A stretch of DNA of 64,000 nucleotides. Source: Struthio camelus (taxonomy: Eukaryota; Chordata; Aves; Struthioniformes; Struthionidae). Both the position numbers and the translations under genes were made by a program. The notes under the pieces were generated by a model. That model was given only the letters and a program-made list of their open reading frames with translations. It ran no database searches and was not told the origin of the DNA. Position 1 is the first letter of the stretch. The number at the start of each line of letters is the position of its first letter. The stretch spans positions 5,844,001-5,908,000 of the forward strand of contig NC_090952.1 of NCBI RefSeq assembly GCF_040807025.1. The letters are read 5' to 3'. Positions 29,553-64,000 of this stretch are shown piece after piece.

Positions 29553-30130
29553 GGCCATCAAAGGCAGGTGAACGCCACACAGGGGAAGATGGCCGCGACT
29601 CTCCCAAGGACTATTACCTTCGACCCCGGAACGCCGTCGTCCAGTACCAAGAGCCATCGGAATGTGGGTTACAGGCACCGTTGGCCTGAAGGGCTGGTTG
29701 CTTCTGATTAAGGGTGGGGGAGTAGAACTTCTGGAATGAGAAGGTACATAGGCAGAGACAAACCAGAAATGATGCCTGGGCACTGTAATTACAGGGTCCT
29801 CAGAAGACGAGCAGACAGAGGATGATGGCGAAGGTACTCCCCGGGCACCTCACCTCAGGCAAACTGCTGAGGACACTCCCGCTCCCCGGGAAGGTAGGCT
29901 AGATGCAGAGCCTCTCTGAAGGGCTCGTTGCTTGTGTGTAAGTGGGATACAGGGTGGGCAATGCAAATGCATACACACACAGACCAATCAGAAGCTCTGT
30001 CTAGGCTCTGTGATTACAGGGGCAACGCGGGAAGGTGAAGGCCGGCAAGGGGAAGATGGCAAAGGTCCCTGGAAGCAGTATAACCTTCGAGCCAGGAAGA
30101 CTGTTGCCTACTACCAGGAGGCATTGGAAG
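29553..30130 (+). CDS. Triplicated N-terminal acidic/LRxRK exons (copy 1)
   Basis: Three consecutive exons, 29553-29663, 29795-29893 and 30020-30130, are each phase 1-1, so any number can be spliced in frame. The first and third encode the same module: GEDG followed by [14 protein letters not shown] or [14 protein letters not shown], matching the YYLRQRKATVYYQ segment of ATAD2. The second is shorter and diverged but starts with an acidic run ([13 protein letters not shown]). The introns after the first two are also alike (..CTGAAGGGCTSGTTGCTT..ATTACAG), so the block of about 240 bp, exon plus intron, was duplicated. A decayed fourth copy may lie at about 29,400-29,445. The middle exon could also end at 29,833. 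Confidence 0.7.
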
Positions 30131-61500: not shown

Positions 61501-64000
61501 AGTGCAAGGGAGGGCTGCAGACCTTCAGGAGAGTTAACAAGCCTCTCTTACCTTCTCACGGTACCAATCCTTCTGTAGAAAACGCCTGCATGGAGAGTGA
61601 GGAGGCATCACCTTCTGGACAGCAAAAGGAAACCTTCCTCCACTTTAACAGGTTGTTAAACTGCCCGCGACCTTTTGAGTGAAATGCTTCTGATTGATTG
61701 CTGGGGCTTTCCCAAGTGTCTTGGCGGTTGCAGGTGGGAGGGGTGGTAGATGAGGGAGGAAAGAAGACCTTGCCCAGGGTGTCTGGTATCCAAAACTGCA
61801 AGAAGCAAGCACAGAGATAGAACTAGGTGCTACAGTTGTAAGAAAGCAAGGAGCTGCAGCCGATCAAGCTGAAGGGGGCAGCCTCCTTTTCCTCCCCCAA
61901 AGACATCCACAGACATTAGGGCATGCTGCCCTAATTTCATGCACGCTATTCCTCAAGGAGAGTTGCACTTGCAACCTAGGAGACAGCACCCAAGGACAGA
62001 TGAAACAATTGGAACGCAAGAATCAAGCAAGTAGCCCCCATTTCTATGGGCTTACAGGAATGTTGTTATTGAGCCTAGCCACTTTTACCCTTCCTCACAT
62101 ACAGCTAAGGGCTCTCAAAGCCCGCGTCATTTGCTTTCCCAGAAGGCTTGTTCTGCCCCTTCGTGACCACCACCTCCGTTACCAGCTGACCACTTTCACC
62201 TAAGCTTGACCAGTGCGGAGAACTCAAGGCTCCTCAACTCAGGACATCCTGAGCGTGAGAGCTTCAGCGGGGAAGACAGGCAGACTGGTGTGTGCTGGAC
62301 AAAGACAGACACCTTCACCAGCTGTGTCTTGACTCATCGCTTTCTTTCCAAACTGCTTGTCTTGCAGCTCTTCTCCTAGCAATGCTTGTGGCCAGCCAGC
62401 ATGTCACCGGCCCAGGTTCCTAATAGCTGGAGAGCCCGGCTACGGGCAAACTTCTCACTTGGCGCCTGCACTCTTACACGCGCTGGAGAGGTTTGCCGTT
62501 CACGTGCTGGACCTGCCGGCTCTCTTTGCTAGCAGCACGCCACCTGAAGAAAGATGCACACAGGTACCGCTTCTCTCTGCAGTCTCACAGCATTAATAGA
62601 CTTCACGGGCTTAGCGGAGGCGGCCTGGCTTTCCTGTGCTTTCTGTGGTGTTTATGTTGTGCTGAAGGAACCCTTTTCTTGTACACTGAACAGCAGAGAA
62701 GCAGCATGTTGTGCAGGAGCATCTTTTCCATTGCAAGTGCCGCACAGTAAGGCTGTTGCTAGCAGCTCAGGGAGCTCCAAGATGCTCTTGAGAAACCTCT
62801 CTTCCTGGCAAGAGCTGCTGCTGCTGGCAGCGGGCTCCGCAGAGCTGTTTCCCTTGCCTCTTCAGGCTCTCTAGCTCCCAGGAGGCGCCTCTGCATCTGC
62901 CTGACTGCTGGTCATGCCCTTTCGCCAGCCTCCTTCTTTAGCAGACTGAACGGCAACCCCGGTTTGGGGCCAAAGAAAAGGGTTTCTTTTCTCTCAGCAT
63001 ACCACAGGTATGCTGCTACTCGCTTCAGTGGTCTTCCCCAAACTTCCTTCTTACTAGTTGGTCCGAGAAGCCCAGAGGACAGCACCCAGCATCATTTATA
63101 TGCCACACATCCATGCCTGGTGGGAGGCTGCTGGAGTCACCTTGAGAGCTACGCTCACCACACTGCTAGAGCGCATTCCACCTTACGCTCCAGTGCTGTT
63201 GCTCGCTACTTCGGATGTTTGCCATGCAGATCTCCCGGAAGAGGTATTTCTGCCACCGCTTTGCCCGCTTTTCTCAGTCTCATGATAATTTATCACTCCC
63301 TGAAGTACCTCAATCCTGTGCCCTCCTAAGCACTTGGACATTGCTATTTCTAGGGGACCCTGCTGGCATCTCCTCCCTCGGGAGTTGCCACAAGGCTTCC
63401 AAGTGAAGGGCGGCAAGGCAAGGCAATCCACTGCAGGCCACCTAGGAGCTGGTGCGTGCCCTCCCTGGCCTCACTGGAACCTCGGCTCGCTGCCCTGAGC
63501 TTTCATCCTGGAGGTCTTCCTTACAGAAGACGCCCTCCAGTGCCGGGCTGACCCACTACAATCTTGCCGTGAAGGCCAAGAAGCAAACTTGTTCTAGTCT
63601 CCCCCTTATTCAAAGCATTCCTCGGCTTCCCTGAAAACAGTTTTCACCTGCTTGGAGTAGAGCACGAATCTGCGGGGGGCCTTAGGGCTGCACTGTCTTT
63701 TCTCCTCCCGCCTCAGGTGCAAGCTTTGTTTTCGGAGCTTTATGGAGAAGTCTTCAATGTCCAGCCACCCAGCAAGGAGGAAGGGAGAAAGCTTTTTGAG
63801 GACTTGCTTCTCCACCAAGCTGCTCCACCTGCTGCACCACAAAGGAGAGCAGGTGGGAACTGTCCTACACATAGAGCTTTGCCATCGGTAGCTTAGCAGC
63901 TCTTTGGCATGTGTTTGGGTATTTGATTTCCTGGCATGACTTTGTACTCTGCTTGTGTCGGACTGCCATCGCTTGGCTAACCTGTTCTGGTTGACTGAAG
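55546..64000 (+). CDS. ATAD2-like AAA+ ATPase, copy 3 (3' end outside window)
   Basis: Third copy, truncated only by the window. Exons: 55546-55656, 55788-55886, 56013-56123, 56325-56403, 57046-57154, 57387-57502, 58171-58345, 58643-58731, 59089-59248, 60329-60419, 60643-60957, 61579-61651, 62380-62563, 63058-63243, 63717-63852. The window's last bases (TTGACTGAAG) are the acceptor of the next exon, which would begin at 64,001. The frame is intact throughout. It has the ancestral-type Arg in [10 protein letters not shown] like copy 1 and the Ala in LLHALERF like copy 2. A 4-bp deletion near 56,299 removes a decoy CAG upstream of the exon at 56,325. Confidence 0.87.

Follow-up and report, generated by a model that had tools for sequence, protein, structure and literature searches.

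A bromodomain-less ATAD2 paralog in tandem arrays beside satellite DNA in the genome of Struthio camelus

The window analysed here, a stretch of 64,000 nucleotides from Struthio camelus (C11:5844001-5908000, C11 being contig NC_090952.1), covers part of a tandem array in which every repeat unit carries one plus-strand gene. As compared at the sequence level, this gene is a segmental copy of ATAD2 with introns, without the first exons and with one N-terminal exon multiplied, and it lacks the bromodomain (the reader). Codon comparisons indicate that its ATPase region came under ATAD2-like constraint after the bromodomain was lost, given that the scar of this loss was passed on by descent, and that the constraint has been weaker since two array families diverged; such constraint implies that a reader-less ATAD2 paralog was functional in the past, and it is probably functional still. 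The reading that we prefer, with a probability of roughly 0.5, is that of an old bromodomain-less ATAD2 paralog acting as a ring-forming modulator or diluter, or as a reader-independent remodeler, at a dose set by copy number. The genome searched comprised 1.452 Gb in 262 contigs, and exon labels are those of Table 1.

Descent from ATAD2

The introns of the arrayed gene align to the ATAD2 gene of the same genome (C2:160.15-160.19 Mb) along most of the gene, whereas ATAD2B, of which 5 kb were compared, aligned in three exon-centred stretches and no others. The arrayed gene is therefore an ATAD2 paralog, as a preliminary description of this DNA, made from its letters alone, had stated. A Pfam search returned AAA (E = 2.1e-47) and AAA_lid_3 for the AAA1 part, and the best PDB match was human ATAD2 (8h3h, E = 8.5e-261), followed by Abo1 and Yta7. 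Judged by sequence only, the Walker A, Walker B and arginine residues of AAA1 are intact, the AAA2 module shows the degeneration known from ATAD2, and an ATAD2-type C-terminal tail is present; the same three features of the preliminary description were thus recovered by motifs, Pfam and PDB alignment. The alignment also places the two human linker-lock residues, D415 and R540, at conserved positions (numbering of PMC10539301; here and below, statements on published work refer to the excerpts of each paper that were available).

The arrayed gene has the AAA exon order, active-type AAA1, degenerate AAA2, linker and C-terminal tail of ATAD2, both that of the same genome and that of human. It differs in the absence of the bromodomain through an exon fusion, in the multiplied N-terminal exon, in a new predicted start exon and in being present as tandem copies. 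ATAD2 exons N_a, N_b, N_e and C_b had no convincing match in the array unit. On sequence grounds the gene descends from ATAD2 but falls outside the reader-bearing architecture.

Loss of the bromodomain

In the ATAD2 gene of the same genome, the bromodomain extends across three exons (Pfam E = 2.5e-18 for this stretch) and is followed by a post-bromodomain exon ending in MPVVPVDSSTPLSN. In exon a11 of the arrayed gene, the start of the first bromodomain exon runs in frame into what was the end of the post-bromodomain exon. The underlying deletion measures about 2.15 kb, window positions 38111/38113 corresponding to ATAD2 positions 19349/21498, and both of its ends lie inside exons. The preliminary description had the exons jumping from the segment LEEQEEHTL past the bromodomain; positions 38011-38154 are in fact a fusion exon, created by one deletion and followed by a GC donor.

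The homologous spliced stretch of the array matched no Pfam family at E<=10. When the bromodomain exons of the own-genome ATAD2 (labelled BRD1 to BRD3) were searched by tblastn on both strands of window positions 26001-42100 and of the C5 unit, BRD2 and BRD3 gave no match at E<=0.5; the sole strong match of BRD1 ends at the fusion point (E = 6e-13 and 1e-12) and the others were weak (E = 0.10-0.14). The supply of a bromodomain from elsewhere in the unit is ruled out by the same result, which also upholds the earlier view that the introns hold no bromodomain relic. Across the whole genome, a bromodomain search returned 48 matches, including the ATAD2 exon at C2:160157199, and none in the array regions of C11 and C5, on contigs C45, C65, C151 and C224, or in the related copy on contig C8.

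This last copy (C8:791-825 kb) is a dead, diverged single copy: exon a10 is frame-shifted, c2 contains a stop and AAA1 lacks six residues. Its fusion junction is the one found on C11 and in the C5 unit, which is most simply explained if the bromodomain was lost once, in the common ancestor of both array families and the C8 copy. The tie between bromodomain loss and amplification drawn in the preliminary description does not hold, as the scar is also present in the dead single copy, and as the array lineage, already bearing it, was strongly constrained before its two families separated. The C8 copy retains a match to ATAD2 exon N_b that the arrays lack, and it also has four matches to the multiplied N-terminal exon, which suggests that this multiplication is probably ancestral. 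The chain of 8h3h likewise runs from LEEQEE almost at once into post-bromodomain sequence, the two aligned stretches, of which the second is weak, being 13 residues apart; its construct was truncated and the bromodomains were unresolved (PMC10539301), and nothing is concluded here from that gap.

Selective constraint after the loss

A branch codon model was applied to four sequences (C11, C5, C8 and ATAD2), with ATAD2B codons left out. Exons n1-n4 entered for C11 and C5 alone, the paralogy of the repeated exons being unclear elsewhere; stop and gap codons, together with the unaligned frame-shifted part of a10 in C8, were set to missing, and n0 and the last exon lie outside both this model and the exon class of the indel counts. 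For the AAA exons, dN/dS (omega) was 0.154 on the array lineage after the split from C8, where a value of 1 was rejected (p = 4.6e-24), and did not differ from the 0.197 of ATAD2 (p = 0.38). Since the scar is common to all three lineages, the branch with 0.154 lies wholly after the loss, if the scar is shared by descent. The C11 and C5 tips taken jointly had an omega of 0.414, below 1 (p = 3.2e-5), and C11 alone was also below 1 (p = 0.0021). Pairwise dN/dS between C11 and C5 was 0.394 (bootstrap 0.290-0.557), or 0.312 for the AAA exons. Across the family dN/dS is not near 1, a value that the preliminary description had named, together with a lack of expression, as a refutation.

Comparison of one C11 unit with one C5 unit pointed in the same direction, exons n1-c2 differing by 6.6% and introns by 10.8%. 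The introns (6186 bases) contained 50 indels, 40 of them frame-shifting, while exons n1-c2 (2480 bases) contained three: two multiples of three and, where c1 ends, one of 212 bases. If exons gained indels as introns do, 16 frame-shifting ones would be expected, with P = 1.1e-7 for none and P = 1.8e-6 for at most one, the c1 event being counted. In the C5 unit (9897-10214) this 212-base difference alters the donor region of c1, and the frame is open from c1 through c2.

Codon constraint also bears on the idea that the arrays produce small or antisense RNA against ATAD2, the open frames being a by-product of similarity. Tandem inverted arrays homologous to a germline gene are a possible layout for a source of small RNA. 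We nevertheless consider this explanation improbable, as the constraint acts on codons and not on nucleotide identity to ATAD2 (exon dS to ATAD2 is about 1.0), and complementarity needs no conservation of frame.

Possible function

The predicted protein would still assemble into a two-tier AAA+ ring, by itself or together with ATAD2, since it keeps the AAA1 motor, the linker-lock residues, the inter-domain linker that led from AAA2 to the lost domain, and the C-terminal tail. Lacking the reader tier, it could not be aimed by acetylated H4; most likely it would then modulate or dilute ATAD2 rings, or be a histone-chaperone remodeler that works independently of the reader. It would act in a tissue rich in ATAD2, which in mouse means male germ cells, and the copy number of the array would set its dose. 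Mouse Atad2 is predominantly expressed in embryonic stem and spermatogenic cells (PMC12818868), and amplified pericentromeric genes of chicken showed a bias towards testis expression on 7 of 10 dot chromosomes (PMC9974502); by analogy, the germline may be the first tissue of interest. Expression, hexamer poisoning, selection on dosage and a role at centromeres are steps that we infer.

In published work on related proteins, Yta7 without its bromodomain could be purified, and weak contacts hold the Yta7 bromodomain tier on the ring (PMC9898759); for human ATAD2B, only a diffuse density of the bromodomain is seen above the AAA rings (PMC13060104); and the interaction with Cse4 needs the AAA domains of Yta7 plus its bromodomain (PMC13050212). 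These data favour a modulator of ATAD2 rings, or an acetyl-lysine-independent chaperone, over a CENP-A loader. Taking into consideration that the ATPase part kept ATAD2-like constraint after clean removal of the reader, the array gene amounts to a natural experiment on the purpose of the ATAD2 bromodomain and argues for motor work that is independent of the reader, a point of some weight given that ATAD2 drug efforts target the bromodomain.

Several observations weigh against a paralog that is functional today. Constraint on the AAA exons relaxed after the split of C11 and C5 (0.415 at the tips versus 0.154, p = 3.4e-4), and C5 alone, with an omega of 0.54, was not significantly below 1 (p = 0.22). 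For the N- and C-terminal exons alone, the tip omega of 0.645 was not below 1 either (p = 0.12), although the implausible value of 5.6 on C8 indicates that these exons hold little data. Among 18 C11 fragments, 4 of 10 variable sites fell in the 649 of 3175 bases that are exonic, so that exon variants are not depleted. When the last exon, in which a one-base difference in C5 shifts the C-terminal stop, is counted along with the c1 event, there are 2 frame-shifting exon events where 16 would be expected (P = 1.6e-5). The codon model used a tree of the four sequences that was imposed and not inferred, and the start exon n0 is a prediction. As for biochemistry, Yta7 without its bromodomain bound no H3 peptide (PMC9898759), and a truncated form of wild-type human ATAD2 was almost inactive as an ATPase and formed no stable hexamers (PMC10539301).

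Some of these points would be expected if a once-functional gene were now carried and homogenised as a passenger in a satellite-like repeat, its frames being open through recent spread of an intact copy and through gene conversion rather than through present selection, an account that we regard as a tentative but real possibility. The relaxed tip omega, the lack of significant constraint in C5 alone and the undepleted exon variants of C11 are consistent with it, as are the dead C8 copy, a stop in AAA1 exon a4 of one C5 edge copy (1 of 30 fragments) and the close inverse alignment of the C11 array ends described below. The joint omega of C11 and C5 and the count of no more than two frame-shifting exon events speak against it. 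So does a block upstream of the gene (1.05 kb), which diverges by 5.9% between C11 and C5 (62/1050) versus 10.8% in introns (669/6186; p = 3e-7). This low divergence may fit a retained promoter, although conversion between the families could also explain it.

Returning to the functional, reader-less paralog, a bolder version would have a long-selected, motor-only ATAD2 multiplied next to (peri)centromeric satellite. Through its dose it would modify chromatin, either by feeding back on that of its own arrays or by poisoning the ATAD2 rings of germ cells, and it would behave as a drive element or as the suppressor of one; this we consider unlikely.

Relation to known systems

Yta7 of budding yeast and Abo1 of fission yeast are likewise tandem AAA ring histone chaperones. 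Both have a bromodomain tier, in contrast to the array gene, and engineered Yta7 without it loses its binding to H3 peptide (PMC9898759). The nearest published parallel for the arrays is provided by the chicken pericentromeric gene amplicons, in which protein-coding genes lie in satellite-like tandem units adjoining satellite (PMC9974502). On C11, a tandem gene array also adjoins satellite DNA, and with about 0.9 Mb of mostly satellite beside it, it may be pericentromeric. Compared with chicken, the contigs concerned are larger (C11, 29.8 Mb; C5, 84.6 Mb), the arrays are opposed and what they amplify is an ATAD2 paralog with a deleted domain. The name ATAD2 has no occurrence in the main text of the chicken amplicon paper (PMC9974502) or in that of the Silkie and Mallard assembly paper (PMC11745021), and among the papers listed in a literature survey, judged by titles and the openings of abstracts, none reports a multi-copy bromodomain-less ATAD2 paralog. 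The gene joins two known kinds of system, the ATAD2-type chaperones and the satellite-borne gene amplicons. It represents a clear case of a chromatin gene inside satellite-like arrays, for which a dead single-copy relative and two diverged families serve as internal controls.

Copies and arrays across the genome

AAA1 exon a2 was found at at least 61 places (C11, 19; C5, 15; C224, 12; C151, 8; C45, 6; C65, 1), a lower bound because 150 of 259 candidates were scored, and a second probe, taken from the spacer, was likewise found at 61 places. The three copies reported earlier are those in the window, where the third is cut. They stand head to tail, as reported, in units of about 12,997-13,007 bp that are 99.89-99.92% identical (two alignments).

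On C11, a left array of 9 copies on the minus strand and a right array of 10 copies on the plus strand point away from the approximately 0.9 Mb between them and form an inverted pair. Of 10 samples taken from C11:4.96-5.80 Mb, 9 contained the 40-bp satellite. At 4.960-4.990 Mb, the left end of the region between the arrays, 3 of 5 additional samples did so; this end is partly non-satellite and in places very G+C-rich. Both arrays stop distally at the identical unit position, and their ends with 3.3 kb of flank align inversely at 99.3% over 6,451 bp. C5 has an array of 13 copies at 4.28-4.44 Mb (plus strand) and two single copies on the minus strand, at 2.93 Mb and at 4.47 Mb. The stretch from 2.94 to 4.265 Mb, which separates opposed C5 copies, was sampled 9 times, and no sample contained the 40-bp satellite; a 50-bp G+C-rich repeat (GGGCCAAGGACCGGGCCACCAGCCTGGAGA type) was found in 3 of these 9 (C5:3.2-3.6 Mb).

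Two further observations concern the surroundings of the C11 arrays. At the distal array ends on both sides another short repeat (GGGCAGCCTCCG type) starts, and the arrays are thus bounded by two repeat types. Between the short satellite of the left array and the main satellite block lies a very G+C-rich, CpG-island-like stretch (C11:4958.5-4960.0 kb), possibly the 5' end of another gene.

This layout could also suggest a selfish, centromere-linked element, in which the histone chaperone would help CENP-A to be loaded, or chromatin to open, at the arrays that encode it and would in this way further their transmission. The inverted C11 arrays around satellite and the opposed copies on C5 are in line with such an element, and Yta7 is needed for deposition of CENP-A (Cse4), with ATAD2 being among CENP-A-associated proteins (PMC13050212). 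The absence of the 40-bp satellite from the C5 samples argues against it, and we rate it as very unlikely.

Comparisons of 3.2-kb fragments divided the copies into two array families, one on C11 and the other on C5 plus unplaced contigs, which are 9.7% apart; within either of the contigs C11 and C5, the copies are nearly identical. The innermost left-arm copy of C11 was rejected as a diverged copy: its 100 differences all fall in the first ~270 alignment columns, at the satellite end. It was therefore not used, and it inflates the mean divergence of the left array. Near-identical copies, inverted arms and satellite flanks may stem from satellite-type homogenisation instead of the selection for copy number that the preliminary description had proposed, and the weakened constraint after the array split weighs against such selection as well.

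The occurrence of the same units on unplaced contigs might raise the suspicion of an assembly artefact, that is, of false duplicates and of bromodomain exons lost in assembly. Such an origin is extremely improbable, as two families about 10% apart on two chromosomes, together with C8, have one scar inside exons, as units differ from each other by single bases and as the C11 array ends pass into distinct flanks.

Gene model and features of the window

The gene of copy 1 is predicted to start at an ATG at 29193, to have its stop codon end at 39080 and to encode 866 residues in 21 exons, with all phases consistent (Table 1). Splice sites are GT-AG save one GC-AG, whose GC donor has identical bases in ATAD2. 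The preliminary description began the gene at 29553; this position is an exon boundary in our model, but of the third exon (n2). Exon n0 was chosen as a conserved upstream ATG exon whose donor and phase match n1, being among few candidates in a wider scan, and an alternative in-frame ATG at 29163 also fits the start. Stricter scans yielded no upstream conserved start with a strong donor, and the earlier N-terminal exons of ATAD2, considered as a start, had no convincing match in the arrays. Exons n1-n4 all resemble one ATAD2 exon (YDLRQRKTVVRYQAPLE) and represent four versions of an N-terminal exon of the YDLRQRK type in a row (29377-30130), the last three being same-phase exons.

Table 1. Features of the window, with predicted exons of gene copy 1
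Feature	Position	Strand	Remarks
20/40-bp satellite (GGGGCTGAAACCACTCC type)	1..26270	+	abuts array
Right-arm tandem array, ~13.0 kb units	26271..64000	+	continues to C11:6002142
Conserved upstream block	27887..29039	+	possibly promoter/5' region, from C11 vs C5 divergence
Start exon n0 (MDLRQTEGVLAEEVKTSLPSSFS), predicted	29193..29261	+	phase 0, donor GTAAGT; kept in C5 family
Exons n1-n5	29377..30414	+	n1 29377-29437, n2 29553-29663, n3 29795-29893, n4 30020-30130, n5 30336-30414
Exons n6, a1	31056..31512	+	n6 31056-31164, a1 31397-31512; linker region and AAA1 start
AAA1 ATPase and lid	32181..34967	+	a2 32181-32355, a3 32653-32741, a4 33099-33258, a5 34339-34429, a6 34653-34967
Degenerate AAA2	35589..37862	+	a7 35589-35661, a8 36378-36573, a9 37068-37253, a10 37727-37862
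Fusion exon a11	38011..38154	+	LEEQEEHTL joined in frame to end of post-bromodomain exon; scar ~38112; GC donor
Exons c1, c2	38285..38867	+	c1 38285-38394 (basic post-bromodomain segment), c2 38739-38867 (ATAD2 tail)
Last exon	39039..39080	+	AATAAA at 39116
Gene copy 2	42190..52076	+	vs copy 1: one R to Q in AAA1, one T to A in AAA2
Gene copy 3	55186..64000	+	ends with window after exon a10 (63717); start set by offset from n1 (55370)

A minus-strand open frame at 28974-29243 was considered as a second gene and rejected; it has no Pfam match above the cut-off, its protein identity between the families is 85%, and all 61 of its genome matches lie in array contigs. Four pieces from the array ends had no match to Rfam families. 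In the satellite part of the window, the motif AAACCACT occurs 840 times, the final occurrence being at 26244, and at about 26.27 kb the satellite ends and unit sequence begins. The window thus contains two complete unit copies and a cut one, with exon n1 starting at 29377, 42374 and 55370, and the last exon of copy 2 lies one base off the 12,997 offset owing to length variation upstream.

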